Assembly: GCA_016222805.1 (NCBI GenBank)
Contig: JACRQG010000025.1
Span: 62,001 to 126,000 of the forward strand
Source of the DNA: Verrucomicrobiota bacterium
GTDB lineage: Bacteria > Verrucomicrobiota > Verrucomicrobiia > Opitutales > Opitutaceae
DNA length: 64,000 bases
Direction: 5' to 3'
Part shown: positions 18,534-49,408 of the stretch, piece by piece
Layout of the letters: every line of letters starts with the position of its first letter
Position numbering within the stretch: position 1 is the stretch's first letter
The notes under the pieces: model-generated
What the model was told of the DNA's origin: nothing
What the model saw: only the letters and a program-made list of their open reading frames with translations
The model's database searches: none
Program-made: the position numbers and the translations under genes

Positions 18534-20426
18534 CTACCCCCGCCCCGCAGCCGCGCGTCCGGCCACCCCGGCCGCAAGCAGCTGCGCACTCCGCCACTGC
18601 GCCCACGGCAGCGCCGCGATCAGCATGACCGCCAGCTGGCTGGCGACAAAGAGGATCAGCCACCAGAAGGCGGCGCCCATGAAGCCATAGCTGTGCAGGC
18701 CGACGCCAAGCATGTTGACACCGAACCAGCTCCACGCCGTCACCACGTTGCCGAACACCGCCAGCACCGCGAGTCCGCGCTGCCGCACGTAGCCTCCGCT
18801 GCGCGCATGGAGGATAATCGCGTTCCACAACACGATCAGCAGCGCGCCATTCTCCTTCGGATCCCAGCCCCAAAACCGTCCCCACGACTGGTCCGCCCAG
18901 ATGCCGCCGAGGACGGTGCCAACCAGGCTGAAGAACGTGGCAAAACAGACGATGCCGTAGATCATCCGCGCGAGCGCGTCGGCGGTGGCGCGATCCAGGG
19001 AGCGGGTCAGGGCGCCGCGGACGATGTAGAGGATCGCCAGCAGACCCGCGAGAAACGTCGCCGAGTATCCGACCGTGATGGTGACCACGTGGGTCGCGAG
19101 CCAGAAGTTGGAATCGAGCACCGCCCGCATCATCTCCATCGTGTCGCCGCCAAGGGAGAGGTGATGCGCGATCAGCAGCGCCGCAAAACCGATCAACCCC
19201 GCGGCCACGCTGCCCACGGCATTGCGGAAGAAGTACTCCAGCACGAGGCAGAGGGCGACCGCTCCCCAGCCGACAAAGAGCGCCGAGGAGTAGAGGTTGG
19301 TCACCGGTGGCCGCGCCTCGAGCCACATCCGCGCCAGGATCCCGCCCGAAGTGAGGACAAAGGCCAGACCCACGAGACCAAACGCGATCCGGCCGAGCTC
19401 CTCGGGCCACCGCAACCAGGAGAAGAATGCCACCAGCGCGGCGGCCACATAGAGCGCCATGCTCGTGTAGAAAGGTTGGGCCGCGTTGAAGCGGGTCTCG
19501 AAGTCGGTCTTCCGCTTCATCTCGGGCCACGCCGCCATCGTGCGCTCCCGCTGGGCCCGGACCAGCCGGTTGAACTCCGCGGCATTACCCCGTTGCCACG
19601 CGCGACCCAGGGCGGCCAACGCCTGGGCCGAAGGCTCAAGCTGGCCCGAGGCCAGGGTCGCGCTCCAGGCGCCGCCGATCGTGCGCCACCCTTCCTCCGC
19701 AGCGACTCCCGCGGCTGGCGGCACCAGGCGCAAGTAGCCGAATTCGTCCATGACGGTGAAAGCGCGGCTGAGGGCGGACCAGCCACCCGCGTCGGTCTTG
19801 CCCCCGGGGGCGGCCGTCCCGGTCGGCGCGGATCGCACCGCCGCGACCGCCGCGGGCAGGTTCTGCTCGAGGCGAGCCAGGTCCTCGAGGAAGGTCTCGA
19901 TCCCGGGCGCCGCAGCACAGGTCTGCAGGCGCTGATAGAGGATCACCGCGTCGCGAAGTTGCACGACCGCCCGTTGGAAGGGAGTGCGCGCGGCGCCCTC
20001 GACGTCGTCGGCCAGGCGTGCCTGCCGATCGAGTTCCATCAGCCGCGGCTGCAACTGCGTCAGGGAAAAACGCTTGCCGCCGGCGCCGTCGGTGGTCGCC
20101 AGGCCCAGCATCGCCAGCACGTCGGGATGGACGACTTCGAACACCTGGTACCGATCCGCCTGCAGCGGCTTGAAGAACATGTCCAGCAGCCACTCGGCCG
20201 GAGCCACCGTCCGGCCATCGGGCGCGACCACCCGCTGCCGCCCCTGCAGCATGAGCAGGGAGGTGCGCGCGACGGTGTCGACCGGCTTGACGCGTCCGTT
20301 GACGAGAGTCGGGACGCGGGTGAACGCATCGAGGTCGAATTCTCCCCCGAGGCGCGGTGTCCGCAGGGTGAAGGCAACCCCCGCGGTAACGGCGAGCAGG
20401 ACGAAAAGCGGCAGGCGGGTGTTCAT
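18534..20426 (-). CDS. ccsA: Cytochrome c maturation protein CcsA/ResC (System II haem handling)
   Basis: A 630-residue integral membrane protein. The N-terminal third (to about residue 310) is mainly extracytoplasmic. The C-terminal half holds about eight membrane segments and the tryptophan-rich haem-binding motif WGRFWGWDPKENGALLIV, characteristic of CcsA/CcmC/CcmF proteins. With ResB it exports haem and attaches it to CXXCH apocytochromes in the periplasm. It overlaps the upstream resB by four bases (ATGA, 20423-20426), so translation is coupled. Its position directly beside genes for dozens of haem motifs suggests it serves them. Confidence 0.93.
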   Translation of the reverse strand: MNTRLPLFVLLAVTAGVAFTLRTPRLGGEFDLDAFTRVPTLVNGRVKPVDTVARTSLLMLQGRQRVVAPDGRTVAPAEWLLDMFFKPLQADRYQVFEVVHPDVLAMLGLATTDGAGGKRFSLTQLQPRLMELDRQARLADDVEGAARTPFQRAVVQLRDAVILYQRLQTCAAAPGIETFLEDLARLEQNLPAAVAAVRSAPTGTAAPGGKTDAGGWSALSRAFTVMDEFGYLRLVPPAAGVAAEEGWRTIGGAWSATLASGQLEPSAQALAALGRAWQRGNAAEFNRLVRAQRERTMAAWPEMKRKTDFETRFNAAQPFYTSMALYVAAALVAFFSWLRWPEELGRIAFGLVGLAFVLTSGGILARMWLEARPPVTNLYSSALFVGWGAVALCLVLEYFFRNAVGSVAAGLIGFAALLIAHHLSLGGDTMEMMRAVLDSNFWLATHVVTITVGYSATFLAGLLAILYIVRGALTRSLDRATADALARMIYGIVCFATFFSLVGTVLGGIWADQSWGRFWGWDPKENGALLIVLWNAIILHARSGGYVRQRGLAVLAVFGNVVTAWSWFGVNMLGVGLHSYGFMGAAFWWLILFVASQLAVMLIAALPWAQWRSAQLLAAGVAGRAAAGRG

Positions 20427-21628
20427 GCGAGGGCGGGGGGAGGAAGGTTGGCGGTCCGGCGCCGGCCGACAAAACCGGCCAGGTGAACCCCGAACTGCAG
20501 CAGCAGGCCTACCGACATCAGCCCGCAGGCGACATAGGGAATCAGCCAGGAGGGGTTGCGCACGACCTGCAGGATGGTGGTGCGGTCGTTGTTCTCGAAA
20601 CCCGACTGGTAAAACGTGAGGCCGCCGTACCGCAGCGGGTTGTTCATGTAGATGAGCACCTCGCGGTCATCGCGTCCGTCCGGCGTGTTGAGGCGCAGGC
20701 GGCTGGAGAAGTTCTTCGGGATCTGCGTGCCCGCATAGCGGTCGTGGCTGAACTTCAGCAGCGTGAGCGAGTACGGTTGATACACCCGCTTGGGGCGCAG
20801 CGCGATGCGCCAGGTGCGGCCCTCGTGGACAAACTCCTGCGGTTGGTCCAGGAGCAACGAGACAAGGTAGACCCCGAGCGAGCGATCCGGCGCGCTCAGC
20901 TCGACAAAGGCCGACGGAGCGTTGCGTTCCTTCGGCCGGTAAGTGACCGGCTGCGGAGCCGCGAGGATTCGCAGTCCCAGGCCAGCCGTCGCCATCACCG
21001 CCCCCCCCTCATGACCCCGCATCGCCAGGCTGGAGTTGGGATAGTAGGCCTTCGTCACGACCCGGAAGGGCAGTTTCGGATGCTGGAGGGACTCCTTGCC
21101 CGCCAGCAGCGCCTCGGGAATCGCGACGACCTCGTCGAACTTCGCCTCGGTGATGTCGGTGAACGCGAGCTCGGTGGCCTGGAAGCTCTCCGCATAGTTG
21201 CGGGTCTCGCCCATGCTCAATCGCAGGTGGAAGTCCTCCTGCCACAGCCCCGTCAGGAGTTCCCCGACCAGCAGCAGAATCAGGCCGAAATGGGAGAGGA
21301 GCAGTCCGGACTTTCGCCACGTCAGGGCAAAGCGGCCGAGAAAGGCGGCGGTCAGGTTCAGCATCAGCAACCCTCCGACCAGATACCCGCCGGGAAACAG
21401 CGGCACGGAGACCGGGCCCACCTGACCATAGACCACAAAGGAACGGAAGTACTTCTCCTGCACCGCCCAGATGCCGAGATTGACCTGGTCCAGCGTGCCG
21501 GCGAAGACCAGGATCATGCTGAGACCCAGGAGAACCAGGGTCAGTTTCAGGGAGGCGAGCTGCTGGCGGACCGAGAGGAGAAGCGGCAGGATCCGGCGGG
21601 GGCCAGCGACAGAGGTGGGTGTGGTCAT
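20423..21628 (-). CDS. resB: Cytochrome c maturation protein ResB (System II)
   Basis: A 401-residue membrane protein of the ResB/Ccs1 family, partner of CcsA. Hydrophobic segments lie near residues 25-45 (LTLVLLGLSMILVFAGTLDQ), 75-95 and 105-130 (LLLSHFGLILLLVGELLTG). A large periplasmic region follows with the ResB pattern IYMNNPLRYGGLTFYQSGFE, and one last membrane segment near the C-terminus. The start at 21628 places the first membrane segment as expected; an upstream in-frame extension is arginine-rich and looks non-coding. It is divergent from the cytochrome c gene at 21905. Confidence 0.92.
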   Translation of the reverse strand: MTTPTSVAGPRRILPLLLSVRQQLASLKLTLVLLGLSMILVFAGTLDQVNLGIWAVQEKYFRSFVVYGQVGPVSVPLFPGGYLVGGLLMLNLTAAFLGRFALTWRKSGLLLSHFGLILLLVGELLTGLWQEDFHLRLSMGETRNYAESFQATELAFTDITEAKFDEVVAIPEALLAGKESLQHPKLPFRVVTKAYYPNSSLAMRGHEGGAVMATAGLGLRILAAPQPVTYRPKERNAPSAFVELSAPDRSLGVYLVSLLLDQPQEFVHEGRTWRIALRPKRVYQPYSLTLLKFSHDRYAGTQIPKNFSSRLRLNTPDGRDDREVLIYMNNPLRYGGLTFYQSGFENNDRTTILQVVRNPSWLIPYVACGLMSVGLLLQFGVHLAGFVGRRRTANLPPPALA

Positions 21629-21812
21629 GGGAGCGCCCGTGGTCGGCGCGACCAGCGTGCCAGAAGGCCCACGGCCCCCGCTCCGCGGATCTTGCGGAGC
21701 GCTGCGCACGACTTGGGGACTGCTTCCGGAGCCCCGATCCCGGCCGGAGGCTTGTCTCCGGAGCTCCACTGCGCGTCCTGGACGACTGCGCATCTTTTTC
21801 GAATTCCGCTCG

Positions 21813-21904: not shown

Positions 21905-22243
21905 ATGAAACACGAAATCAAACTGATCGTCGCCGGTGCCCTGCTTGCCGCGGGTGCCGCCTTTGTCATCGCCGCTCCTGTCGCTGAAAACTGGGAAAAC
22001 CATTGCGCCAAGTGCCACGGAGCCGACGGCAAGGGCCAGACCAAGGTCGGCAAGAAGCTGAACGTCCTCGACTACACGAGCGCGGCCGATCAGGCGAAAT
22101 TCACCGACGAACAGGCGATCAAGGTCACGACCGAAGGCGCCAAGGACAAGGCGGGCAAGGAGCGCATGAAGGGCTTCAAGGACGAGCTCTCCGCCCAGGA
22201 GATCAAGGACCTCGTCGCGCACGTGCGTAAGTTCAAGAAGTAA
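21905..22243 (+). CDS. Periplasmic monohaem cytochrome c
   Basis: A 112-residue class I-type cytochrome with a signal peptide (MKHEIKLIVAGALLAAGAA, cleavage near VIAAPVAE). The haem site is CAKCH in NWENHCAKCHGADGKGQT, and MKGF near residue 93 gives a likely axial methionine. It would shuttle electrons in the periplasm. It is a close relative, of identical length, of the gene at 34663-35001; both read GKGQTK.GKKL after the haem. It leads the transcription unit that continues into the ImcH-like gene, with a hairpin between them. Confidence 0.93.
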   Translation: MKHEIKLIVAGALLAAGAAFVIAAPVAENWENHCAKCHGADGKGQTKVGKKLNVLDYTSAADQAKFTDEQAIKVTTEGAKDKAGKERMKGFKDELSAQEIKDLVAHVRKFKK

Positions 22244-22337: not shown

Positions 22338-23855
22338 ATGTCAGACTCACCCACTCCCTCCGCCCCCGCCCCGGAACCCGCTCGCTCGGCCAAGGCGCGT
22401 TCGAACTTCAACAACTGGATCAGCGCCGTCGGTGGTGTCGTCGCCATCGGGGCCCTGTTCTCGTTCGCCCTCTTGGTCTGGATGGACTTCACGCAGGGGG
22501 AAAAGAACCCGTATTTGGGCATCTTCACCTACCTGGTCGCCCCCGGATTCCTGATTGCCGGCCTGGCGCTGGCCGGGTTTGGCGCCTGGGCCCAGCGGCG
22601 CTGGATGGTCAAGCACGCGAACGCGCCCGACCGGTGGCGCATCGACTTCCACAGTCCCGCGCAGCGCCGCGGGATGGCGGCGCTGGTCATCGGCGCCCTC
22701 GGTTTCGTCGTGCTCAGCGCCTTCGGCAGCTACCAGACCTACCACTACGCCGAGTCGAACCAGTTCTGCGGCCAGGTCTGCCACTCGGCGATGAATCCCG
22801 AATGGGTGACGTACCGGCGCGGCGCGCACGCCCGCGTCAACTGCGTCGAGTGCCACATCGGCTCCGGCGCCCGCTGGTTCATCGAAGCCAAGCTGAACGG
22901 CGCCCACCAGCTGATGGCCTACACGCTCAACAATTGGAACCGTCCCATCGACACCCCGATCAAGAACCTCCGCCCCGCGCAGGACACCTGCGAGAAGTGC
23001 CATTGGCCAGAGAAGTTCGCCGGCAACGTCGAAATGGTTTTCGACCACTTCCTTTCCGACAAGAAGAACACCCCGTACACCGCCCGGATGCTGATGCACG
23101 TGAACACCAACGTGCCCGGCCACCCGCCCGGCGGCATCCACTGGCATGTGAACGAATTCGAGCGCGTCGAGTACTTCGCCACCGACGAGGACCGCCAGAA
23201 CATCCCGTGGATGCGCGTCGTGAACAAGAAGAACGGCACGTCCCGCGTCTTCCGCACCGACGATTTCAAGGGCGAACCTCCGGCGGACAAGGTGCGCGTG
23301 ATGGACTGCATCGACTGCCACAACCGCCCCGCGCACGTGTTCCCGACGGCCAACGAGGCGGTCGAGCCCGCCATGTTCACCGGCGAGCTCACCACCAAGC
23401 TGCCGAATATCAAGCGGGGCGCCGTTCAGGCGATGACGCAGAAGGAAATTACCAAGGATGCGGAGGCCCCGCAGAAGATCGCGGACTTCATGCGCGGGAA
23501 GTACAACGACCCGGCCCACGCGGTCGACCTCCCCGGCGCGATCAACTCGGTGCAGAAGATCTTCTCGAGCACGATCTTCGTCGATCGCAAGGCCGACTGG
23601 CGCGTCTATCCCAACAACATCGGCCACAAGGATTGGCCCGGCTGCTTCCGCTGCCACGACGACAAGCACAAAACCGCCCAGGGGCAGAAGGTCCGCTCCA
23701 GCGACTGCACGTCCTGCCACACCATCCTCTCGCAGGGCAAGGGGACAGATCTCGAACTCCTCAACGCCAAGGGTCTCGAATTCAAGCATCCCAGCGGGGA
23801 CCTCGATCCCGAGCTGAGTTGCGCCGACTGCCACAACGGCGGAATCCAGAAGTGA
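22338..23855 (+). CDS. ImcH-like inner-membrane NapC/NirT-family heptahaem cytochrome c
   Basis: A 505-residue protein with three membrane segments in the first 140 residues (near 27-48, 60-85 and 112-132) and a periplasmic multihaem domain. Haem motifs in order are CGQVCH (a CX3CH site in the NapC-type position, followed by SAMNPEW), CVECH, CEKCH, CIDCH, CFRCH, CTSCH and CADCH. Three N-terminal membrane helices, a NapC/NirT domain, seven motifs and a length near 500 match ImcH of Geobacter, which takes electrons from menaquinol for acceptors of higher potential. A role as quinol oxidase feeding periplasmic cytochromes is inferred from this likeness and from the neighbours. Confidence 0.82.
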   Translation: MSDSPTPSAPAPEPARSAKARSNFNNWISAVGGVVAIGALFSFALLVWMDFTQGEKNPYLGIFTYLVAPGFLIAGLALAGFGAWAQRRWMVKHANAPDRWRIDFHSPAQRRGMAALVIGALGFVVLSAFGSYQTYHYAESNQFCGQVCHSAMNPEWVTYRRGAHARVNCVECHIGSGARWFIEAKLNGAHQLMAYTLNNWNRPIDTPIKNLRPAQDTCEKCHWPEKFAGNVEMVFDHFLSDKKNTPYTARMLMHVNTNVPGHPPGGIHWHVNEFERVEYFATDEDRQNIPWMRVVNKKNGTSRVFRTDDFKGEPPADKVRVMDCIDCHNRPAHVFPTANEAVEPAMFTGELTTKLPNIKRGAVQAMTQKEITKDAEAPQKIADFMRGKYNDPAHAVDLPGAINSVQKIFSSTIFVDRKADWRVYPNNIGHKDWPGCFRCHDDKHKTAQGQKVRSSDCTSCHTILSQGKGTDLELLNAKGLEFKHPSGDLDPELSCADCHNGGIQK

Positions 23856-24399: not shown

Positions 24400-26568
24400 A
24401 TGCGCGCCTCCCCGATCGTCTTTGCCCGCCGCGTTGCCAGCCTTGGCCTGATTGCTTTCTCGCTTGCCGCCAGTCGTGCCGCCGAACCGGCCGCCACCGC
24501 GGAGGCCCCGTCCAAGAAACCGCCCGTGGTCGCGAACAAGGACTGCATGGAATGCCACGAGGCGGAGTTCAAGTCGCGCAAGAAGGGCCTGCCGAAGGAA
24601 TGGGTCGGCGTGCGGCCCGAGCAGTTCGCCAAATCCGTCCACGGCAAACTCAACTGCGTCGACTGCCACGCGGACATCAAGGAGGCGGAGCATCCCTCGA
24701 AACTCAAACCCGCGCAGTGCGCCTCGTGCCACGAGAAGGCCGCCGAGCAGTTCAGCACCAGCATCCACGGCATGAGCCACAAGATGGGCGCCTCGGCCGC
24801 CGCGTCCTGCGCGAGTTGCCACGGCACCCACGAGATGGCGCCGGTGAAGCAGGCGGACTCCCCGGTCTTCAAGTTCAACCTGCCCAAGACCTGCGGCACG
24901 TGCCACGACGACGCCAAAATCACCAAGGAATACAAGATCGGCGAAGCCAAGGCGGCCGGGCACTATCTCGACAGCATCCACGGTCGCGCCCTCGTGAAAA
25001 TGGGGCTGATCGTCGCCCCGTCGTGCAACGACTGCCACGGCGTGCACGACATCAAGCGCACGGTCGACAAGGAGTCCCGCTCCAACCACGCCAACATCGC
25101 CAAGACCTGCGGCGCCTGCCACGTCGGCGTCGAGGATGTCTACAAGGAGAGCATCCACGGCCAGCTGCTCGCCAAGGGAGACCCCAAGGGCCCGGTCTGC
25201 GTCGACTGCCACAGCGCGCACGAGATCGAGAAGCCCACCAATGCCCACTTCAAGGCCGGCAGCGACCGTAGCTGCGGCAAGTGCCACCAGGATCGGCTCG
25301 AACATTACCGCGAAACCTATCACGGCAAGGCGATGGCCCTCGGCCAGCCCAACGTCGCCGCCGATGTCGCCGCCTGTTATGACTGCCACGGCCACCACGA
25401 TGTCTTCGCGGTCACAGACAAGCGCTCGCGCCTCCACAAGGAGAAGATCGTCGGCACCTGCGCCCAATGCCACCCGGGCGTCAACGCCAGCTTCACGCAG
25501 TACCAGCCCCACGCCAACCCGCTGGACAAGGAGAACTATCCCATCCTGAACAAGGTGTTCTGGTTCATGACCACGCTCCTCGTGAGCGTCTTCGCCTTCT
25601 TCGGGCTGCACACCGCCTTCTGGCTCTTCCGCTCGGTCTACCTCTACCTGCACGACTCGAAGTCGTTCCGCGAGGCGGTGGTCAAGGCGCACGTCGACGA
25701 CGACGTCTTCACGCGCTTCACCCCGTTCGAGCGCTTCCTGCACCTGATGATGGTCACGAGCTTCCTCGCGCTGGTCATCACCGGCATGCCGTTGAAGTTC
25801 TACTACACCGACTGGGCGAAGACCATGTTCCGCTTCCTCGGCAACGCGGAGGTCGCCCGCACCCTCCATCACTACGCCGCCGTCGTCACCTTCGCCTACT
25901 TCATCCTCCACGTCGGCGGGCTCGTGGTGAACTTCTGGAAACAGCGTGACGGGATTCGCGATCCGGCGACCGGCAAGGTCACCTTCCGCCGACTGCTCGA
26001 TATCGTCTTCCATCCCGATTCCATGGTGCCGTCGCTCCAGGACTGGCGCGATTTTGTCGCCCACCAGAAATGGTTCTTCGGCAAGGGGCCCCGCCCGCAG
26101 TTCGACCGTTGGACGTATTGGGAGCGCTTTGACTACTTCGCCGTGTTCTGGGGCGTGGCGATCATCGGCTTCTCCGGCTTGATTCTCTGGTTCCCGAAGT
26201 TCTTCACGCTCTTCTTCCCGGGCTGGATCATCAACATCGCCATGGTCGTGCACTCCGACGAGGCGCTGCTCGCCGCCGGCTTCATCTTCTCGTTCCACTT
26301 CTTCAACACCCATTTCCGCATCGAGAAGTTCCCGATGGATACGGTGATCTTCTCCGGGCGGATTTCGCGGACCGAGATGCTGCACGAGCGGAAGCGCTGG
26401 TACGACCGGCTCGTCGCGGCCGGCAAGCTGGACCTGTTCCGGGTCAAGGCCGACGACTGGGAAGGTCGCAAGAACATCGCCAAATCTTTCGGGTTCCTGT
26501 TCTTCGGCACCGGCCTGGTCCTCCTCGTCCTGATTGTGTACGCGATGGTCTCGCGCCTGGGACACTGA
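24400..26568 (+). CDS. CbcL-like fusion: 11-haem cytochrome c domain plus membrane cytochrome b
   Basis: A 722-residue protein. After a signal peptide (cleavage near ASRAAEP), residues about 45-370 carry eleven CXXCH motifs: CMECH, CVDCH, CASCH, CASCH, CGTCH, CNDCH, CGACH, CVDCH, CGKCH, CYDCH and CAQCH. From about residue 385 to the end there are six hydrophobic segments with histidines suited to b haems (FERFLHLM, TLHHYAAV, FILHVGG, VVHSDEA, FSFHFFNTHF), as in HydC/FdnI-type cytochrome b. The fusion matches CbcL of Geobacter, a menaquinol-oxidising inner-membrane enzyme needed for low-potential extracellular acceptors. Its two extra haems relative to CbcL (nine) are noted. Its own promoter matches those of the porin-cytochrome modules. 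Confidence 0.85.
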   Translation: MRASPIVFARRVASLGLIAFSLAASRAAEPAATAEAPSKKPPVVANKDCMECHEAEFKSRKKGLPKEWVGVRPEQFAKSVHGKLNCVDCHADIKEAEHPSKLKPAQCASCHEKAAEQFSTSIHGMSHKMGASAAASCASCHGTHEMAPVKQADSPVFKFNLPKTCGTCHDDAKITKEYKIGEAKAAGHYLDSIHGRALVKMGLIVAPSCNDCHGVHDIKRTVDKESRSNHANIAKTCGACHVGVEDVYKESIHGQLLAKGDPKGPVCVDCHSAHEIEKPTNAHFKAGSDRSCGKCHQDRLEHYRETYHGKAMALGQPNVAADVAACYDCHGHHDVFAVTDKRSRLHKEKIVGTCAQCHPGVNASFTQYQPHANPLDKENYPILNKVFWFMTTLLVSVFAFFGLHTAFWLFRSVYLYLHDSKSFREAVVKAHVDDDVFTRFTPFERFLHLMMVTSFLALVITGMPLKFYYTDWAKTMFRFLGNAEVARTLHHYAAVVTFAYFILHVGGLVVNFWKQRDGIRDPATGKVTFRRLLDIVFHPDSMVPSLQDWRDFVAHQKWFFGKGPRPQFDRWTYWERFDYFAVFWGVAIIGFSGLILWFPKFFTLFFPGWIINIAMVVHSDEALLAAGFIFSFHFFNTHFRIEKFPMDTVIFSGRISRTEMLHERKRWYDRLVAAGKLDLFRVKADDWEGRKNIAKSFGFLFFGTGLVLLVLIVYAMVSRLGH

Positions 26569-38328: not shown

Positions 38329-38334
38329 GGGGAA

Positions 38335-39828: not shown

Positions 39829-40656
39829 ATGCACCTGCGACCAAGACTGACCAAGAACACCCTGATTTTCGGAGGCACCGCCGCCTGGGGCCTCCTGCTG
39901 ATTTCCTGCGTGGCGGTGAACCGAGCCGTGGTCTCGCCGGTCACGATCGACGGCGCGACCTACGTCGGCACCAAACAGTGCACCGAGTGCCACGAGGAGC
40001 AGACGGCCCACTTCGCCGGGTCGACGCACGCCAAGGTCGCCATCGCCGATGCCAAGCTCGGCGACACCGGCTGCGAGGCCTGCCACGGGCCGGGCAGCCT
40101 GCACGTCAAGGCCGGCGGAACCAAGGCCACCATCATCAACCCGAAGAAGTCCGCCGAGTCGTGCTTCCAGTGCCACCTCGAGAAGCGGGGCCAGTTCAGC
40201 CTGCCCAATTCCCACCCAGTCATGGCCGGCAAGGTGACCTGCGTCGACTGCCACGACGTGCACGAGGGCAACGCGGTCCGCGGCACGGGAGCCTCGCTCG
40301 AAGCCGAGATCGAGACCTGCACCAAGTGCCACACCGCCCAACGCGGCCCGTTCGTCTATGAACACAGCGCCATGCGTGAAGGCTGCACCGCGTGCCACAA
40401 CCCGCACGGCTCGGTCAATGCCAAGATGCTCGTCGCCCGCGACGCCAACCTCTGCAACTCCTGCCACCTGCTCCGGCCGAGCGTGCCGAACAGCGGTGAG
40501 ATCAACTCCAACTCGATCCGCAGCACGATCGTGAACGGCATCAAGGTCGCTTCGCCGGAGAATCACAACAACCGGCTGCAGCAGGGCACCTGCTGGGTCG
40601 CCGGCTGCCACGAGGCCGTCCACGGCTCCAACGCCAACAACCACCTCCGCCGCTAA
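39829..40656 (+). CDS. DmsE/MtrA-like octahaem lipoprotein cytochrome, module 1
   Basis: A 275-residue cytochrome. The N-terminus has a positive stretch (MHLRPRLTKN), a hydrophobic segment and a lipobox LLIS-C27, so a periplasm-facing lipoprotein is predicted. Haem motifs: CTECH, CEACH, CFQCH, CVDCH, CTKCH, CTACH, CNSCH, and a last unusual CX4CH (CWVAGCHEAVHGSN). The pattern (CEACHGPGSLHVK, NPHGSVN) is that of the DmsE/MtrA family, which usually has ten haems; here eight sites are present. It should sit inside or against the barrel encoded 17 bp downstream and carry electrons across the outer membrane. It contains a 30-residue insertion between the last two motifs compared with module 2. Confidence 0.9.
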   Translation: MHLRPRLTKNTLIFGGTAAWGLLLISCVAVNRAVVSPVTIDGATYVGTKQCTECHEEQTAHFAGSTHAKVAIADAKLGDTGCEACHGPGSLHVKAGGTKATIINPKKSAESCFQCHLEKRGQFSLPNSHPVMAGKVTCVDCHDVHEGNAVRGTGASLEAEIETCTKCHTAQRGPFVYEHSAMREGCTACHNPHGSVNAKMLVARDANLCNSCHLLRPSVPNSGEINSNSIRSTIVNGIKVASPENHNNRLQQGTCWVAGCHEAVHGSNANNHLRR

Positions 40657-40673: not shown

Positions 40674-42854
40674 ATGAAAGTGAATACTTCTTCCCTCTTC
40701 CGTTGCGCCGGCTTCGTGGCTGGTTCGGCGATTCTCCTCACCGGCGTTTCCGCCCGGGCCGCCGCCGCGGCCGGCGACGCGATGCCGGAGTTCCAGAGCT
40801 ACATCAAGATCTCCGGCCAGGCCGCCGACATCAGCGGCAGCAAGGCCAGCCAGGCCGCCCGCACCCAGGAGCCCAAGAGTGGCGCCGGGATCGAGGAGCT
40901 CTATTACTCCAAGGAACTGTCCAAGACGACCAACATGGTCATCGAGGGCAAGGCCCTGTCGGGCGCCGAGGACTATCTCGCCAGCTACAAGATCACCAAG
41001 GCCGAGGTCGGCACGTTTGATGTCGGCTACAAACGCTTCCGGACGTTCTACGATGGTGTCGGCGGGTTTTTCCCGCTGAACAACGCGTGGTTCCCGCTGA
41101 AGACGCAGGAGCTGCACACCGACCGCGGCCAGTTCTGGGCCGAGGCGAAAATCACGCTGCCCAAGATGCCGGTCTTCACCCTGCGGTACACGAACGAACT
41201 CCGCAACGGGCGCAAGGACTCGACCATCTGGGGCGACACCAGCTTCACGGGGATCCCGAATAACGTCTCCCCGTTCTCCCCGGTCCGGAAGATCATTCCC
41301 GCCACCATCCAGCTCGGCGAGCGCCATGAGGAGATCGAAGCCTCGGTCAAGCACACCCTCGGCAACACCACCTACCAGCTCACGCTGCTCGGGGATCGCG
41401 TCAACAACCTCGATACGCGGTACATGACCCGCTTCCCCGGGGAGGCCCGCCTCTTCCCGGCCCCGGCCGCCACCGTTCTCGTGCCCGCGGCCAACATGAA
41501 CAGCCAGATCATCATGGAGCAAACCGACGGCATGGAGGCGACGATGAGTGTGCTCAACGCCTCCACCATCACCGTCCTGTCTCCGCGGCTGACGCTGCGC
41601 ACCGGACTGAGCTATTCGCTCCTGCACAGCGATTCGACCGGCGACCGGCCGATCTGGACTTCGACGCCGACCGCGGTCGTCGTCGTGATCGCCCCCAGCA
41701 ACAACAACCAGAACCTCCTCATCGGCTCCCGCCTCGAGGTCTGGACCGCGAAGGCCGGGGTGGATCTCAAGCCCACCAAGGACTTCTCCGCCACGGTGGC
41801 CGTCCGCGCTGAGGACAAGTACGTCTCCTCGGCCGGTTCGCTCACCAGTGTCGCCGCCGCCGTCAACACCGCCAATGGTGCGATTACCATCACGCCCACC
41901 AACCAGCTCAACTGGTCGCGGGTGAAGGAGCAATCCGCCACGCCCGTGGTCGAGGCGCGCTACACCGGGATTCCCGATCTCACGCTCTACGGCAACGGCA
42001 GCAAGCGGCTCCTCGATGGCGACGAGCGCTACTCCACTCCCTACAATCCGCTGACCGCGGTCAACGGCACCCTGGCCAACAATGATATCGGTGAGGATCA
42101 CGCCAATTGCGCCTTCGGCGCCAACTGGCGCCAGTCGAGCCGACTCACCTTCCGCAGCGAGGTGTTCCTGAAGGACCACGAGTTCCTGTCTGAAGGCTAC
42201 GCCACCCGGGTCGGCGATCACTTCATGCTGCGCACGAAATACTCCGGGCTGAAGTTCTCCGCCGTCGCCAAGCTGTCACCGGAAGTGACCTGCACCAGCC
42301 GGTATATCTACCAGACGGGTCGGGTCGATGTCACCGGCGTCCTTCCCGGCGCCGAGGAGTATGATTCGATGCACGCGAAGAACCACACGCTGAGCGAGAC
42401 GGTCGACTGGGCTCCCAGCCGCCAGTTCTACCTGCAGGGCAACGTGAACGTGGTGTTCAACGTGATCAGCACGGTCTATCCGCGCGCCGGGGTCGCCCCC
42501 GCGACCGCGACGGCGGTCGCCTGGGACGTCAACCAGGTGCTGCAGAACGCCAACAACAACTACATCACGGCGGGGCTGACCGCCGGCGCCGTCCTCTCCA
42601 AGGAGGACGACCTCAAGATCCAGTTCACCTACTACCGGGCGGACAACTCCGACGCCGCCCTCGCGCTTCGCACCCAGCCCTACGGCTCCGACCTCAAGGA
42701 GTACATGGTGACGGCCGGCCTGAAACATAAGTTCTCCGACAAGTGGATCGGCCACGCCAAGCTCGGCTATCTCGACAACAAGAACACCGCCACCGGCGGC
42801 CGCACCAGCTTCCGCGGCCCGCTCGGGTACGTGTCGATCGAGTACGGACTGTAA
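40674..42854 (+). CDS. MtrB/PioB-like outer-membrane beta-barrel, module 1
   Basis: A 726-residue protein with a signal peptide (cleavage near ARAAAAAG) and a body of alternating short polar and hydrophobic segments typical of a large barrel. Shared with module 2: GYKRFRTFYDG.GGFFP near residue 125, and the RNGRKDSTIWGD segment near 178. Length (MtrB about 700) and strict pairing with a DmsE/MtrA-like cytochrome identify it as the porin partner. It ends VSIEYGL, without the usual terminal Phe. It starts 17 bp after its cytochrome gene and is followed by two hairpins. Family assignment rests on context and architecture more than on a long motif. Confidence 0.82.
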   Translation: MKVNTSSLFRCAGFVAGSAILLTGVSARAAAAAGDAMPEFQSYIKISGQAADISGSKASQAARTQEPKSGAGIEELYYSKELSKTTNMVIEGKALSGAEDYLASYKITKAEVGTFDVGYKRFRTFYDGVGGFFPLNNAWFPLKTQELHTDRGQFWAEAKITLPKMPVFTLRYTNELRNGRKDSTIWGDTSFTGIPNNVSPFSPVRKIIPATIQLGERHEEIEASVKHTLGNTTYQLTLLGDRVNNLDTRYMTRFPGEARLFPAPAATVLVPAANMNSQIIMEQTDGMEATMSVLNASTITVLSPRLTLRTGLSYSLLHSDSTGDRPIWTSTPTAVVVVIAPSNNNQNLLIGSRLEVWTAKAGVDLKPTKDFSATVAVRAEDKYVSSAGSLTSVAAAVNTANGAITITPTNQLNWSRVKEQSATPVVEARYTGIPDLTLYGNGSKRLLDGDERYSTPYNPLTAVNGTLANNDIGEDHANCAFGANWRQSSRLTFRSEVFLKDHEFLSEGYATRVGDHFMLRTKYSGLKFSAVAKLSPEVTCTSRYIYQTGRVDVTGVLPGAEEYDSMHAKNHTLSETVDWAPSRQFYLQGNVNVVFNVISTVYPRAGVAPATATAVAWDVNQVLQNANNNYITAGLTAGAVLSKEDDLKIQFTYYRADNSDAALALRTQPYGSDLKEYMVTAGLKHKFSDKWIGHAKLGYLDNKNTATGGRTSFRGPLGYVSIEYGL

Positions 42855-43221: not shown

Positions 43222-43998
43222 ATGACACTGCGACCGAGACTGACTAAGAATGCGCTAGTATTCGGAGGAGTAGCCGCTTGGGGGTTACTCCTCATTTCGT
43301 GTGTGGCCGTAAACCGCACCCTCGTTGCTCCTCCCAGTATTCCCGGGGCCACCTTTGTCGGCAACAAGGCCTGCGCGGAGTGCCATGAGGAGACCACCAG
43401 CCATTTTGGCGGTTCTTCCCATGCTCGCCTGGCGATCGCCGATGCCAAGGTGGGTGAAACCGGCTGCGAAGCTTGCCACGGTCCCGGCAGCCTGCACGTC
43501 AAGGCCGGCGGCACCAAGAGCACCATCATCAATCCGCAGAAGTCTCCGGAATCGTGCTTCGAGTGCCATCTGGACAAGCGCGGCGAGTTCAGCCTGCCGT
43601 ACAGCCATGCGGTCATGTCGGGCAAGATGAGCTGCGGCGAGTGCCATGACCCGCACAAGGGTAAGGCCACCAAGGGCACCGGCGCCTCCCTGCAGACGCA
43701 GGCCGAAGCCTGCACCGAGTGCCACACCGCGCAAAAGGGTCCCTTCATCTTCAAGCACAACGCCATGAAGGAAGGCTGCACCTCCTGCCACCGTCCCCAC
43801 GGCTCGGTGAACCAGAAGATGCTCGCCGCCCCGGATTCGAATGTGTGCCTGCAATGCCATGCCACGGGCTCGAGCCCCGGCATGCTCTTCGCGGGTGGAC
43901 GCGACCACGCCGGCAATCCCGTCAACGGATCCTGCTGGGTCGCCGGCTGCCATGAGGCAGTCCACGGCTCCAACGTCAGCCATGCCCTGCGCTTCTAA
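43222..43998 (+). CDS. DmsE/MtrA-like octahaem lipoprotein cytochrome, module 2
   Basis: A 258-residue paralogue of 39829-40656, very similar in the N-terminal signal (MTLRPRLTKNALVFGG, lipobox ISC) and through the haem region. Haems: CAECH, CEACH, CFECH, CGECH, CTECH, CTSCH, CLQCH and the CX4CH site CWVAGCH. The first 90 coding bases are lower in GC and use rarer codons (for example CTA GTA TTC GGA) than the same stretch of the paralogues, which could affect early translation. It is followed after 19 bp by its own barrel gene. Confidence 0.9.
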   Translation: MTLRPRLTKNALVFGGVAAWGLLLISCVAVNRTLVAPPSIPGATFVGNKACAECHEETTSHFGGSSHARLAIADAKVGETGCEACHGPGSLHVKAGGTKSTIINPQKSPESCFECHLDKRGEFSLPYSHAVMSGKMSCGECHDPHKGKATKGTGASLQTQAEACTECHTAQKGPFIFKHNAMKEGCTSCHRPHGSVNQKMLAAPDSNVCLQCHATGSSPGMLFAGGRDHAGNPVNGSCWVAGCHEAVHGSNVSHALRF

Positions 43999-44017: not shown

Positions 44018-46231
44018 ATGAATTCACTCTCTTTTGCTCTCCGCACCGCTGGCCTGTCCGCCGGTCTGGCTTTCCTGTCCGTCTCCGTCGGCGCCGCTGA
44101 AACCGACGCCATGCCGACGTTTGACAGCAACTATATCACGTTCTCGGCCGGTGGCGCCGACCTCAACGGCAGCAAACCCGCCTACCAGGCCCGGACCCAG
44201 AGCGCCAAGAGCGGCGCCGCGGGTATCGAAGACATGCGCTTCGACTACGACCTGAAGGACAAGACCACGCTGACGGTCACCGGCCGCGCCCTCGCCGGCC
44301 AGGAGGACTACCTGCTCAACTTCAAGCTCTCGAAGGATCAGGTCGGATCGGTGGAGGTCGGGTATAAGACGTTCCGCACGTTTTACGACGGCGCGGGCGG
44401 CTTCTTCCCCATCGGCAACGTCTGGATGCCGCTCTTCAGCCGGGCGCTCTACGTCGACCGCGGCCAATTCAGCCTCAGCGGCACCATCGCGCTGCCGAAG
44501 GCACCGGTCTTCACGTTCAAGTACGCGCACAGCACGCGCGACGGGCGCAAGGACAGCACCAGCTGGGGTGACAGCAACCTGACCGGGATTCCGATTTATG
44601 CCGGTCCCGGCGCGGTGAATCCCATCGCCGCCATGCGGAAGCTGCTCCCGGCCTACGTCGACCTCGACGAGAAGAATGACACGTGGGAGATCAGCGCCCG
44701 CCACAAGGTGGGCAACACGACCGCCGTCGTCTCGCTGGGCGGCAACTCGATCAAGAACCTGAACGTGCGCGAAATGTACCAGAACATCGGCGAGCTCGCC
44801 GTGTTCCCGGCGCCGGTCTTCACCGCGCCGACGGTCAACAACGTCCGCGCCGGCAGCCCGCGCCGCACGACCATGACCCAGCGCCACGAGGAGGACGGCT
44901 ATCACGCGTCCGCCACGTTCGAGACCAAGGTGGACGAGAAGGTCACCGTTTTCGGCGGCCTCGTGTACCACACGGCCGACGTCGACATCGCGACCTCCCG
45001 CCAGCTCATCGCGACCATCGCCTCGGCGACCGGCGTGCGTGACTACGCCGGCGGCTTCACCAACACGGGCCCCACGGCCCGCGCCCCGTATCACCTGGTC
45101 GCGAAAGGCGACCTCGAATACACGGTGGTGACCGGCAACATCGGCGCCCGCTTTAACCCGAGCAAGGATGTCGCCATCGAGGCCGCCCTCCGCGGCGAGC
45201 GCTGGAAGGACTCCGGCAAGAACCTCGGTAACTACTCCTCGCAGGGAGTGACGCTCGCCACCGGCGCGGTCACGTCCTATGCCTCCCAAGGCCTGCACGG
45301 CGTCGAAAACGTCGAGAAGCCGTGGACGCCCACCCTGGACTTCCGCTACACCGGCATCAAAAACATGGCCCTCTACGCGAGCTGGGAGTACCGCACCGCG
45401 AAACAGGATGAGCACGTGCGTTACGAAGGCCTGAATGGTCAGACCAAGGCCAACGAGCTCGACATGATCGGAAAGAAGATCGACGAAACGCACTCCAATG
45501 CGACGATCGGCATGTCCGCCACCGTCAGCCCGCAGCTGACCCTCCGGGCCGAGGTCTTCACCAAGGATCACGAGAACGACTTCAACGGCTACGACGATGT
45601 CATCGGCCGCAACTACGTCCTGAACTACGACATCTACGGCGGCCGGCTCACCGCGGTGATCAAGCCGTCCAACCAGGTGAACCTCACGTCGCGCTACGTG
45701 CTCCAGCGGGGCAAGTCCACGATCTTCCACTCTGGGCTCACGACCACCGGCGTCCTCAACGGCTGGGTCGATGGCAACGACTCCACCCGTCACAGCTTCT
45801 CCGAAGGCATCACCTGGAGCGTCTCCAAGGCCGTCTACGTTCAGGCCAACGGCTCCGTGGTCTACGACCAGATGCAGACCATGTACCCGTGGATCAGCGG
45901 CATCGCGAAGCGCAACTTCCGCAATGCCGACAACAACTACGTCACGGGCGATGCCACCGTCGGCTTCTCGATCGACCGCAACACGACCGGGATGATCCAG
46001 GCCACCTACTACCGCGCCAACAACTTCGACGCCGATTATGCCGCCGTCGGCATGCCCCTCGGGGCCAGCGGCAAAGATTCGACCATCAGTCTCGGCGTGC
46101 GGTACAAGATCGACGACAAGACCCTGCTGAACGCCAAGGTGGGCTACTGTGACAGCGAGAACAGCACGCGCGGCGGCTTCGCCGACTTCAGCGGGCCCCT
46201 CGCCTATCTGTCCATCCAGCGCGCGTTCTAA
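44018..46231 (+). CDS. MtrB/PioB-like outer-membrane beta-barrel, module 2
   Basis: A 737-residue barrel protein with signal peptide (MNSLSFALRTAGLSAGLAFL, cleavage near VGAAET). It shares with module 1 the start of the mature protein (NGSKPAYQARTQ..KSGA), the GYKTFRTFYDGAGGFFP segment and RDGRKDSTSWGDSNLTG. The C-terminus SIQRAF ends in Phe as expected for assembly by the BAM machinery. The start 44018 was chosen for its signal peptide; an open frame continues upstream into the cytochrome gene. Modules 1 and 2 are clearly more alike than either is to module 3. Confidence 0.83.
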   Translation: MNSLSFALRTAGLSAGLAFLSVSVGAAETDAMPTFDSNYITFSAGGADLNGSKPAYQARTQSAKSGAAGIEDMRFDYDLKDKTTLTVTGRALAGQEDYLLNFKLSKDQVGSVEVGYKTFRTFYDGAGGFFPIGNVWMPLFSRALYVDRGQFSLSGTIALPKAPVFTFKYAHSTRDGRKDSTSWGDSNLTGIPIYAGPGAVNPIAAMRKLLPAYVDLDEKNDTWEISARHKVGNTTAVVSLGGNSIKNLNVREMYQNIGELAVFPAPVFTAPTVNNVRAGSPRRTTMTQRHEEDGYHASATFETKVDEKVTVFGGLVYHTADVDIATSRQLIATIASATGVRDYAGGFTNTGPTARAPYHLVAKGDLEYTVVTGNIGARFNPSKDVAIEAALRGERWKDSGKNLGNYSSQGVTLATGAVTSYASQGLHGVENVEKPWTPTLDFRYTGIKNMALYASWEYRTAKQDEHVRYEGLNGQTKANELDMIGKKIDETHSNATIGMSATVSPQLTLRAEVFTKDHENDFNGYDDVIGRNYVLNYDIYGGRLTAVIKPSNQVNLTSRYVLQRGKSTIFHSGLTTTGVLNGWVDGNDSTRHSFSEGITWSVSKAVYVQANGSVVYDQMQTMYPWISGIAKRNFRNADNNYVTGDATVGFSIDRNTTGMIQATYYRANNFDADYAAVGMPLGASGKDSTISLGVRYKIDDKTLLNAKVGYCDSENSTRGGFADFSGPLAYLSIQRAF

Positions 46232-46255
46232 GCTCGTCAGCTGCCAGCCAACTTC

Positions 46256-46317: not shown

Positions 46318-46364
46318 CCCCCGAAACCCGCCTTCCGCCCGGTTCCGCCGAGGACAAGATCTGA

Positions 46365-46425: not shown

Positions 46426-46484
46426 AAGGTCGATGGTTCAGCACCCCTTTCCCACGCTCTCCTAACTTAACCGCACCCTCAGCC

Positions 46485-47258
46485 ATGACCCTACGACCGC
46501 GCCTGACCAAGAACGCCCTGATCTTCGGCGGAACCGCCGCCTGGGGCCTTTTCCTCGTCTCCTGCGTGATGGTGAACCGCAACGTCATCATGCCGCCAAC
46601 CGTTCCCGGCGCGACCTTCGTCGGCTCCAAGGCCTGCGAAGAGTGCCACGCCGATGTCACCAAGGGCTTCGGCGGGGCGACCCACGCCAAGCTGATGACG
46701 CCGGGTGACGCCCAGAAGGAGATGGGCTGCGAATCCTGCCACGGCCCGGGCAGCGTGCACACCAAGAGCGGAGGCGGTGCCGGCACCATCGTCAATCCGC
46801 AGAAGAAGGCCGACACCTGCTACCAGTGCCATCTCGAGAAGCGCGGCGAATTCAACCTTCCCTACGGCCACAAGCCCGGGGTCGTCGGCTGCTCCGAGTG
46901 CCATGATCCGCACAAGGGCGACGCCATCAAGGGCGGCGGGGTCCGCCTCGCCTCCGCCAATGAGACCTGCCTGAAGTGCCACGAGTCGCAACGCGGCCCC
47001 TATGTCTTCGAGCACGAGGCGCTCCGCGACAACTGCAGCGTCTGCCACAACCCGCACGGTTCGACGAACCCGAAGATGCTGAAGGCGCGCAACGCGACCC
47101 TCTGCCTGCAGTGCCACTACCAGCAGCAGACCGCCACCGGCCTCTACATCGGCGGCCGCGATCACCAGACCTACCTGCAGCAACGCGGCACGTGCTGGAG
47201 CGCGGGCTGCCACGAGGCCGTCCACGGATCGCACGTGAATTCGTCGCTCCGCTTCTAA
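46485..47258 (+). CDS. DmsE/MtrA-like octahaem lipoprotein cytochrome, module 3
   Basis: A 257-residue paralogue with the same N-terminus (MTLRPRLTKNALIFGG) and lipobox (LFLVSC). Haems: CEECH, CESCH, CYQCH, CSECH, CLKCH, CSVCH, CLQCH and the CX4CH site CWSAGCHEAVHGSH. The segment between the third and fourth haems is shortened (YGHKPGVVG), and the last linker is YQQQTATGLYIGGRDH, similar in length to module 2. It is followed after 32 bp by the third barrel gene. Confidence 0.9.
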   Translation: MTLRPRLTKNALIFGGTAAWGLFLVSCVMVNRNVIMPPTVPGATFVGSKACEECHADVTKGFGGATHAKLMTPGDAQKEMGCESCHGPGSVHTKSGGGAGTIVNPQKKADTCYQCHLEKRGEFNLPYGHKPGVVGCSECHDPHKGDAIKGGGVRLASANETCLKCHESQRGPYVFEHEALRDNCSVCHNPHGSTNPKMLKARNATLCLQCHYQQQTATGLYIGGRDHQTYLQQRGTCWSAGCHEAVHGSHVNSSLRF

Positions 47259-47290
47259 CTCCACCCAGCAACCTTCAAGAATCTCCCGCC

Positions 47291-49330
47291 ATGCACAGCT
47301 CTCGTTTCAGCACCCTCTGGGCGGTCCTCCTCGCGCCAGCGACCCTGCTGGCCCAGCAATCCTCCTCGTCCGGCACCATCACGGTCGGCGGCGGTGGCTC
47401 CCTGCTCGACGGCGACCGGCCGTCGTTCCAGCAGGTCATGCAGCAGAAGAAGGACGGTTACGGCGGCATCGAGGAATTCAAGGTCACCAGTGAGGCCAAG
47501 GATTCCGTCTTCAAGTTCGAGGCCCGCCTCCTCCCGGGCAACGACGACTACCGCGTCGCCATCCGTTACGACAAGAACGACCGGTACTACGTCGATGCCG
47601 GCTACGAGCAGTTCCGCGTCTGGTCCGACGGTTCGGGCGGCGTCTTCCTGCCGATGAACGTCTCGTTCGTCATGTTCAACGAGGACCTCTCCCTCTCCCG
47701 GGCCAAGCTCTGGGCGGAGTTCGGTGCCTGGACCGCGGACAAGACCCTGTTCAAGTTCCGCTGGGAGCGCCGCACGCGCAACGGCACCAAGAGCTCGACC
47801 CATTGGGCCGACTCGAACCTCGTGGGCACCTTCGGCACCCGCAGCATCGTGCCGACCTTTTACGACGTCGACGACCAGACCGACGATTTCTCGATCAGCG
47901 TGAGCAACACGTCGAAGGAGGACGTGAAGTGGGGCGCCACCCTTCGGTACACCGACACCAAGATCGATGACCGCCGCTACGAGCGCCGCCGGCCCTTCGA
48001 GACCGCCGACCGCATCGTGACGCACAAGGACGAATCGAAGAACGACATCTTCACCGCCCACGGCTTCTACGAGAAGAAGGTCAGCGAGCAGCTGACCGTG
48101 ACCGCCGGCGCCCTGCGCACGACCCTCGACGGCGTGATCGAGGGCAGCCGCATCTACGGCCAGACCTACGACCCCGTCTACGACCCGGCCTACCTCCGCC
48201 GCCAGCAGCGCGACGAGGGCTACTACAACCTCGAGGGCACGTCCGAAATCAAGCAGACGATCCTCAACGCCAACGCCGTCTACCTGCCCGCCAAACACTG
48301 GTCGGTCCGCGGCAGCCTGCGCTTCGAAAACTCGCACCAGGAGACGATCGCCGAATTCGTCGAGACCAACATCGGCGCCGGCCCCGCCTTCGCGGCCATC
48401 CTCGAGGACGTCGAGGGCGAGCACAAGAAGTCGTGGGACGAATGGGGCGAGGGCCTGGAGGTCCGTTACACCGGCCAGCCCAACGTGGTCTACAGCGCCA
48501 AGGCCGAGTGGATCCAGGGCCAGGGCGACCACGAGGAGGAGCGGATGATTCACCACACCGGCCAGCTCACCGTCGACCGCGACCTCGAGTACAAGCGCAA
48601 CAGCCAGAAGTACTCCCTCGGTGCCAACTGGTACTTCCGGCCCGGCCTCACCCTCGCCGCCCAGTACTACTGGAAGGGCAACACCAACGACTACAACGCC
48701 CGCCGCGACAACACCTCGAACATTCTCACCTCGGGCGACCGCTACCCGGCCTTCATCACCGACCAGGACTTCGAGACCAATGACTTCAACGTGCGCCTCT
48801 CCTGGCGCCCCGTGACCGGTCTGAACCTGGTCTCCCGCTACGACTACCAGAAGGGCAAGATTATCTCCCAGGACGCCGGACTCGGCAAGGTGGACAGCGC
48901 CGAGATGAAGTCCCACATCCTCTCGCAGAGCGCCACCTGGAGCCCCGCGGGCAGCTACTACTTCACGGGCAACGTCAACGTGACCTACGACACCCTCACC
49001 ACCCCCACCCTGGCCTTCACGCAGAATCAGGATAACAACTACGTGAACGCCTCCCTTGGCGGCGGCTGGGTGGTCGGCAAGCAGGACGACCTGTACGCGG
49101 ACTACTCGTGGTTCCGGGCCAACAACTTCATCGACCGGTCCGCCACGCTGATTCCCTTCGGCCTCAGCCAGAAGACCCAGCAGGCCTCCCTCACCTGGGT
49201 CCGCCGGCAGAGCGAGAATCTCCTCTACACCGTCAAGTACGGGTATGTCACCAACCGCGATCAGACCTGGGCGGGTCTCAATGACTTCGACGCCCACGTG
49301 ATCTACGCCAAGGTGCAGTACAAGTTCTGA
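47291..49330 (+). CDS. MtrB/PioB-like outer-membrane beta-barrel, module 3 (divergent)
   Basis: A 679-residue barrel protein with signal peptide (MHSSRFSTLWAVLLAPATLL, cleavage near LAQQSS). It is the most divergent of the three: the mature N-terminus is glycine-rich (GTITVGGGGSLLDGD), while GYEQFRVWSDGSGGVF and RRTRNGTKSSTHWADSNLVG still align with the other two. It is rich in acidic and aromatic residues and ends AKVQYKF. The start was chosen for the signal peptide. The pairing with a closely conserved cytochrome but a changed barrel suggests a different outer-surface partner or substrate. Confidence 0.82.
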   Translation: MHSSRFSTLWAVLLAPATLLAQQSSSSGTITVGGGGSLLDGDRPSFQQVMQQKKDGYGGIEEFKVTSEAKDSVFKFEARLLPGNDDYRVAIRYDKNDRYYVDAGYEQFRVWSDGSGGVFLPMNVSFVMFNEDLSLSRAKLWAEFGAWTADKTLFKFRWERRTRNGTKSSTHWADSNLVGTFGTRSIVPTFYDVDDQTDDFSISVSNTSKEDVKWGATLRYTDTKIDDRRYERRRPFETADRIVTHKDESKNDIFTAHGFYEKKVSEQLTVTAGALRTTLDGVIEGSRIYGQTYDPVYDPAYLRRQQRDEGYYNLEGTSEIKQTILNANAVYLPAKHWSVRGSLRFENSHQETIAEFVETNIGAGPAFAAILEDVEGEHKKSWDEWGEGLEVRYTGQPNVVYSAKAEWIQGQGDHEEERMIHHTGQLTVDRDLEYKRNSQKYSLGANWYFRPGLTLAAQYYWKGNTNDYNARRDNTSNILTSGDRYPAFITDQDFETNDFNVRLSWRPVTGLNLVSRYDYQKGKIISQDAGLGKVDSAEMKSHILSQSATWSPAGSYYFTGNVNVTYDTLTTPTLAFTQNQDNNYVNASLGGGWVVGKQDDLYADYSWFRANNFIDRSATLIPFGLSQKTQQASLTWVRRQSENLLYTVKYGYVTNRDQTWAGLNDFDAHVIYAKVQYKF

Positions 49331-49362
49331 CGAGTCGGTTTCGTCAGTCCTCCATAGAACCA

Positions 49363-49408
49363 GTCGGCCGCGGCGCATGTGGGTGCGCCGCGGCCGACCC
49401 TTTTTTCC
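49363..49408 (+). terminator. Strong terminator after module 3
   Basis: A perfect 15-bp stem GTCGGCCGCGGCGCA / TGCGCCGCGGCCGAC with loop TGTGGG, then CCTTTTTT. It closes the porin-cytochrome array. Confidence 0.93.

Follow-up and report, generated by a model that had tools for sequence, protein, structure and literature searches.

How might a bacterium with a dense block of multihaem cytochrome genes pass electrons across its envelope, and could a cytoplasmic nucleotide control one of the points at which they enter? The question is raised by an island at positions 18534–49408 of a 64-kb stretch of DNA (the window; positions 62,001–126,000 of contig JACRQG010000025.1) from a Verrucomicrobiota assembly of 7.9 Mb in 51 contigs that is 95.6% complete. 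We consider it somewhat more probable than otherwise that the island is the extracellular electron-transfer apparatus of an Opitutaceae-like bacterium, with a nucleotide-tuned entry at module A, a DsrP/DsrO-like quinol oxidoreductase (35672–39024) whose membrane subunit carries a cyclic nucleotide monophosphate (cNMP)-binding insert; the nucleotide tuning would be the novel part. Genes were re-derived from open frames, codon-position G+C content and Pfam matches, and gene order, domains, haem motifs, the position of the insert, its conserved cassette residues and co-occurrence are read directly from the sequence. By their octahaem cytochromes, the closest named relatives are Opitutaceae and Opitutae metagenome-assembled genomes (MAGs), which makes Opitutaceae the likely family, and a large part of the block is kept in synteny in contigs under these names. 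The papers cited below by PMC accession were available in part, and statements about them apply to those parts.

Module A and the small gene that follows it comprise these features, in transcription order:

38335..39024, minus strand: module A tetrahaem cytochrome, in the place of DsrJ (four CXXCH, one transmembrane segment)
37378..38277, minus strand: module A DsrO-like 4Fe-4S subunit with a probable twin-arginine signal (NF045797, 173.3 bits, cut-off 200; PF10518, 20.9 bits, cut-off 22.7)
35672..37381, minus strand: module A DsrP-type, NrfD-like membrane subunit with cNMP-binding insert (NF045798, 414.5 bits, cut-off 350; PF03916; PF00027)
36188..36652, minus strand: cNMP-binding insert, residues 244–398, in the predicted cytoplasmic loop between transmembrane helices (TMH) 5 and 6 (PF00027)
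35159..35650, minus strand: small protein accompanying DsrP-type modules, without a Pfam or NCBIfam match

An earlier, sequence-only reading of this DNA had recognized two NrfD modules. Both membrane subunits do pass the Pfam NrfD model, and what that reading missed is that one of them, module A, is DsrP/DsrO-like with a cNMP-binding insert. The membrane subunit passes the NCBIfam DsrP model and, leaving the insert aside, has ten hydrophobic segments by a permissive threshold and nine by a stricter one; DsrP has been modelled with ten helices on the pattern of ActC, a protein with its termini on the N-side (PMC8076601). Counting against the assignment, the iron–sulfur (FeS) subunit has DsrO as its best match among the families listed, at a score below the cut-off of that model. 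Module A thus resembles DsrMKJOP in a membrane subunit that passes as DsrP, an FeS subunit closest to DsrO and a small multihaem cytochrome c encoded with them; it differs in the cNMP insert, in the linked porin–cytochrome conduit and in the lack of DsrMK partners among the island proteins scanned. DsrJ has three haems (PMC8076601), whereas the module A cytochrome has four haem motifs. The small protein was found alongside the module in 37 of the 40 module A regions fetched, has a 32% identical homologue in the NapA cluster of the same genome and is perhaps an assembly factor.

The insert scores 62.3 bits against PF00027 (cut-off 27.5), which places it in the cNMP-binding domain family, and lies after the sixth of the ten hydrophobic segments. 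It is predicted to occupy the cytoplasmic TMH5–TMH6 loop, in the second four-helix bundle, on the basis of the ActC-like ten-helix layout of DsrP (PMC8076601). The charges of the remaining loops agree with this layout, with 14 K+R against 7 D+E on the insert side and 8 against 10 on the other. Insert-free homologues, 74–88% identical over residues 1–243, and the NapA-associated paralogue are joined at the identical point. The alternative of a separate CRP-type gene brought into frame by accident was rejected, the insert being in frame at one point in 25 rows. The insert shares the PF00027 fold family and cassette residues with the regulatory subunit of cAMP-dependent kinase, cGMP-dependent kinase and CRP, and differs from all of them in its setting, a loop within a polytopic membrane protein of the NrfD family. 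None of the open-access papers searched links a cNMP domain to NrfD or DsrP; one that matched names a cyclic-nucleotide protein encoded separately within a hydrogenase cluster.

Does the insert still bind a nucleotide? Among solved structures, its relatives include chains of cGMP- and cAMP-dependent kinases and, at E = 5e-11, 5d1i, a cyclic-nucleotide-binding protein of one domain. An F-G-E ... R-x-A motif is kept in all 22 insert copies of a sample of 150 genomes from the window's own family, and E348 and R357, which we presume to be ligand contacts, are invariant in 23 of 23 distinct aligned insert rows. Since the G-E and R of the cassette are thus invariant, we argue for retained ligand binding. 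Several points pull the other way. The whole-chain E values for the kinases (5e-12 for cGMP-dependent kinases) sum several weak domains; in the four chains listed, the two top domains per chain have E values of 0.004 to 0.14. Domains of the cNMP fold can lack a nucleotide ligand. The insert is also dispensable, as about half of the module A subunits are without it. A dimerization or docking element that senses no nucleotide, or neutral baggage in the loop, is accordingly an alternative of some weight, if short of an even chance: it would accord with an insert both present and absent among closely related subunits and changing state seven to eight times on the trees, at least three of them forced, and it sits poorly with the invariant cassette residues.

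The distribution behind these numbers is as follows. The subunit is matched in 55 of the 150 family genomes: 43 have the module A form, whereas 12 have the NapA-like form alone. The module A form was defined as all insert-bearing copies together with insert-free copies 74–88% identical over about residues 1–243, and the NapA-like form as insert-free copies at 61–68% identity; the grouping is by identity, not by a NapA neighbour. The 43 genomes divide into 22 that carry the insert, which is fragmentary in G027 and G146, and 21 that lack it. Insert-bearing rows do not form a clade in either of two trees, and a single clade is rejected in the second (approximately unbiased test, P = 0.002); of the seven to eight changes, the three at least that are forced follow from supported branches. 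The first tree gave the Acidobacteria locus L035 an implausible branch length of 10, and the second omits L035, the NapA-type outgroup and three rows that duplicate others (L020, L022 and L026). One origin with several losses and several independent gains fit the trees alike and cannot be told apart.

Beyond the family sample, the fusion was found in 5 of 387 Verrucomicrobiota genomes, all of the window's own family (the 387 may include some of the 22 insert-bearing genomes), and six more Verrucomicrobiota genomes matched only through insert-free ends or a cNMP-only frame. It was found in none of 297 genomes of the phylum of L035 (two matches being cNMP-only frames), none of 247 from the phylum of the Geomonas locus L036, in a search that had no positive control, and none of 246 from the phylum of the planctomycete locus L033, where nine matches were insert-free NrfD ends. 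Few candidates per genome were scored with the cNMP-containing query, so distant DsrP–cNMP fusions could be missed. In L035 itself, from an Acidobacteria MAG (9836–15102), modules B and A, each of tetrahaem, FeS and NrfD genes, stand in direct tandem; its module A subunit is without the insert, and no octahaem cytochrome was matched in that stretch. Two draft genomes have a module A subunit gene in two pieces (the FeS gene in L122, the NrfD gene in L107), perhaps through assembly or sequencing errors.

Is module A part of an extracellular route or a general supplier of periplasmic electrons? An octahaem cytochrome of the kind paired with the island barrels occurs in 70 of the 150 family genomes, in 40 of the 43 with a module A subunit and in 30 of the 107 without (Fisher P = 6e-14; these tests ignore relatedness). 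The three module A genomes that lack it are 70–83% complete. Where only the NapA-like form is present, 5 of 12 genomes have it, compared with 25 of the 95 that carry neither form (P = 0.31). In the 40 module A regions fetched, a number of which end at contig ends, the octahaem cytochrome is present in 23, a barrel in 25 and NapA in none. Module A could instead be a general quinol:cytochrome c oxidoreductase that feeds periplasmic reductases such as NapA and is not dedicated to the conduit, and the same genome does have, beside NapA, a paralogous module whose DsrP-type subunit is free of the insert; the co-occurrence, strong with module A (40 of 43) and not distinctly above background with the other form, and the absence of NapA from all 40 regions make this quite improbable. 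By these counts, module A shows a strong link to the conduit within the family, module A being the entry route for which the association was assessed.

The conduit consists of three octahaem/barrel pairs on the plus strand, which close the island:

39829..40656, plus strand: octahaem MtrA-like cytochrome 1, lipobox LISC (homology, motifs)
40674..42854, plus strand: predicted outer-membrane barrel 1 (homologous to barrels 2 and 3; strand periodicity)
43222..43998, plus strand: octahaem MtrA-like cytochrome 2 (homology)
44018..46231, plus strand: predicted outer-membrane barrel 2 (homology, strand periodicity)
46485..47255, plus strand: octahaem MtrA-like cytochrome 3 (homology)
47291..49330, plus strand: predicted outer-membrane barrel 3 (homology, strand periodicity; relative L182 passes PF11854)

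The pairs are paralogues: identity to the first cytochrome is 67% for cytochrome 2 and 56% for cytochrome 3, and identity to the first barrel is 39% for barrel 2 and 25% for barrel 3. A profile of the octahaem cytochromes finds chain A of 6r2q at an E value of 2.3e-37, which bears out the proposed MtrA-type cytochromes; we take this chain to be MtrA, although the structure table names its molecule otherwise. Cytochrome 1, the copy scanned with NCBIfam, falls below the cut-offs of the DmsE model TIGR03508 (157.2 bits, cut-off 192.2) and of the GSU2203 model, and with eight motifs it has fewer than the ten haems of DmsE and MtrA. All three cytochromes have CX4CH as the last haem site and carry a lipobox (LISC or LVSC).

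The barrel candidates are 679–737 residues long and end in F or L. They show 24, 27 and 24 strand-like peaks against means of 17–18 in shuffled sequences (s.d. 3.2–3.4), an excess of 1.7 to 3 s.d. in what is a crude test; four non-barrel controls stayed within about 1 s.d. of their shuffles. The sequence-only reading was to be refuted should profile searches place the barrels outside the MtrB/PioB family, and the outcome lies in between. On the unfavourable side, none of the three matches the MtrB/PioB models (PF11854, TIGR03509) directly, only one of ten barrel relatives scanned singly passes PF11854, and profile–profile alignment (hhalign) with two further barrels encoded elsewhere in the genome is weak, the best probability being 15% (E = 0.0017). 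That comparison has little power, because the control, in which those two barrels, both matching PF11854, were aligned with each other, reached 0.3%, no better. No Pfam or NCBIfam family exceeded its cut-off for any island barrel, with one sub-threshold Porin_3 match, and a search of solved structures with the barrel profiles returned no match. Among 32 related barrels, two match MtrB_PioB and three match PSCyt1 at E ≤ 0.1. One of the two, L182, a relative of barrel 3 (446.8 bits), passes PF11854 with 39.6 bits (cut-off 23), and for this reason the island barrels are likely to be remotely related to MtrB/PioB. In three Verrucomicrobia MAGs (L029:6799–9225, L030:7178–9982 and L031:10576–13086), an octahaem-adjoining barrel bears an N-terminal PSCyt1 monohaem domain, a layout that we find somewhat like Cyc2.

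An octahaem/porin conduit in Verrucomicrobia is not new, because such pairs are already in the literature: He et al. (2017, PMC5615132) described six Verrucomicrobia MAGs in which a novel porin adjoins an octahaem cytochrome, as well as homologues in Opitutus, and proposed that the pairs serve extracellular transfer. Putative novel porin–cytochrome genes have also been listed in Verrucomicrobia (He et al. 2019, PMC6344600). Like these clusters, the island sets a large porin that lacks known homologues next to a periplasmic octahaem cytochrome, a likeness judged by description. The parts of both papers available do not describe a DsrP-like module, a cNMP insert or, within the cluster, an ImcH or CbcL homologue, and some of their clusters hold an extracellular multihaem gene that is not seen in the island. 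Compared with MtrAB, MtoAB and PioAB, the island likewise encodes an MtrA-related cytochrome with a barrel and, like Mto and Pio, no extracellular cytochrome; it differs in its eight haems rather than ten, the lipobox, the last haem site and barrels without a direct profile match.

The remaining features of the island are haem-maturation genes and other candidate entry routes:

18534..20426, minus strand: CcsA-like cytochrome c assembly protein, System II (PF01578, 83.7 bits)
20423..21628, minus strand: ResB-like protein, System II (PF05140, 57.6 bits; start refined)
21905..22243, plus strand: monohaem cytochrome c, first copy (one CXXCH; a monohaem gene also lies between ResB and ImcH in loci L018 and L019)
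22338..23855, plus strand: ImcH-like heptahaem quinol oxidase (PF03264; six CX2CH and one CX3CH; three transmembrane segments; 39–40% identity to Geomonas)
24400..26568, plus strand: CbcL-like c/b fusion, 11 haem c motifs (PF14522/PF14537; PF01292, 30.2 bits, cut-off 30.1)
27776..30061, minus strand: CbcL-like c/b fusion, 13 haem c motifs (PF14522/PF14537 and PF01292)
32135..33376, minus strand: module B NrfD-like membrane subunit, eight transmembrane segments (PF03916, 135.6 bits)
33378..34190, minus strand: module B 4Fe-4S ferredoxin-like subunit (Fer4_11; TtrB- and DsrO-like scores below cut-offs)
34187..34642, minus strand: module B tetrahaem cytochrome (four CXXCH, one transmembrane segment)
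34663..35001, minus strand: monohaem cytochrome c, second copy (PF00034)

A nitroreductase/ferredoxin gene lies between the two CbcL-like genes, and a gene for a DUF2339 protein follows the 13-haem one. A single minus-strand run comes next, transcribed from module A through the small protein and the monohaem cytochrome to the tetrahaem, FeS and NrfD-like genes of module B. Pfam cut-offs are passed for Cytochrom_C_asm, ResB, NapC/NirT, the two fusions of c7/c3 with Ni_hydr_CYTB and the two NrfD proteins. On recount, the gene inventory and positions of the sequence-only reading proved exact, including its 65 haem motifs: 61 CXXCH, one CX3CH and three CX4CH in ten proteins, that is, the ImcH-like protein (6 + 1), the CbcL-like pair (11 and 13), two tetrahaem, two monohaem and three octahaem proteins (seven CXXCH and one CX4CH each). 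The clustering is not chance, because 61 of the 66 CXXCH found in all six frames of the window, read from stop to stop, fall within these ten genes. The window was also scanned for RNA families and tRNAs, and none was found. Directly adjoining the island, at 49577–55754, are planctomycete-type genes for DUF7133/HEAT/cytochrome c and PSCyt1-PSCyt2-PSD1 proteins.

The proposed ImcH- and CbcL-like proteins held up. Geobacter-group ImcH has three N-terminal transmembrane segments, a CX3CH followed by six CX2CH motifs and a length of 495–519 residues (PMC6295460). The island protein, of 505 residues, shows the topology and motifs by which ImcH membership is judged, and its residues 26–504 are 39–40% identical to proteins of two Geomonas genomes. 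Both CbcL-like proteins pair a multihaem c half with a b-type membrane half over Pfam cut-offs (for the 11-haem protein by 0.1 bit), an assignment made by domains and not against Geobacter CbcL itself. Topology and haem arrangement are thus shared with the Geobacter proteins; CbcL has nine haem motifs rather than 11 or 13, and its homologues span 3–23 (PMC6295460). That survey counted four CbcL-type homologues and one ImcH homologue in Verrucomicrobia, and the part available reports no mtrAB or mtoAB adjoining imcH, whereas ImcH and the octahaem cytochrome share one stretch in 8 of the 40 module A regions. Of the module A regions, 3 of the 19 with the insert and 10 of the 21 without it contain an ImcH homologue (P = 0.046, for stretches of unequal length).

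The island had been called self-contained, which is too strong, because further parts lie elsewhere in the genome. A fourth octahaem cytochrome, with eight CXXCH and no CX4CH, is paired with a barrel that matches MtrB_PioB (45.9 bits); a ten-haem cytochrome stands with a clear MtrB_PioB barrel (326 bits); alternative-complex-III-like genes lead into a COX1 gene; and a NapA cluster has its own DsrP-type module with an insert-free subunit. The prediction that no extracellular MtrC/OmcA-like cytochrome is encoded extends to the whole assembly, in which nothing exceeded the cut-off; the two weak matches are an ActA-like pentahaem protein and the module A tetrahaem cytochrome. The multihaem survey drew on two Pfam families plus one from NCBIfam and could have overlooked an extracellular cytochrome of a novel kind.

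For an outward route, that negative is an unfavourable sign, and it makes the island resemble Mto and Pio. Flow through the octahaem/barrel pairs might instead run inwards, with Fe(II) or reduced humics as the donors and the inner-membrane cytochromes reducing quinone, as proposed for MtoAB/PioAB. Oxidizers too have CbcL/MtoC homologues (PMC6295460), and the alternative-complex-III-like and COX1 genes would suit such a direction. ImcH homologues, however, have so far come only from reducers in the part of that survey available (PMC6295460), and an ImcH and two CbcL homologues together recall metal reducers; we regard inward flow as improbable.

In the outward apparatus that we favour, the ImcH-like protein, the two CbcL-like proteins, module B and module A would oxidize quinol at the inner membrane and pass electrons to the periplasmic tetrahaem and monohaem cytochromes, which would feed three parallel octahaem/barrel conduits of the porin–cytochrome kind in the outer membrane. 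Most probably, the role of the insert would be to let a cytoplasmic nucleotide shift the second four-helix bundle and so tune quinol oxidation or proton movement. The first candidate ligand would be cAMP, in view of the class III cyclase genes in this genome, where PF00211 has three matches above its cut-off. We infer complex formation, outward direction, ligand, gating, quinol oxidation by the entry modules and transfer through the small cytochromes from this arrangement of genes. The more specific proposal, a quinol oxidoreductase dedicated to extracellular transfer, gated allosterically by a cytoplasmic cyclic nucleotide and with a gate gained or lost repeatedly among close relatives, is tentative, and we think it rather unlikely to hold in full.

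The island brings ImcH, CbcL and a DsrP-like route together with porin–cytochrome conduits in a phylum for which, in the available parts of the reports, such respiration has been proposed and not demonstrated (PMC5615132, PMC6344600). Nucleotide control is directly testable, because insert-bearing and insert-free subunits, 74–88% identical over residues 1–243, coexist naturally. If it proves true, a second messenger acting directly on a quinone-reactive respiratory subunit would represent an unusual form of regulation: gating through a domain built into the proton- and quinone-handling membrane subunit would let the cell set electron export at once, and not by transcription.

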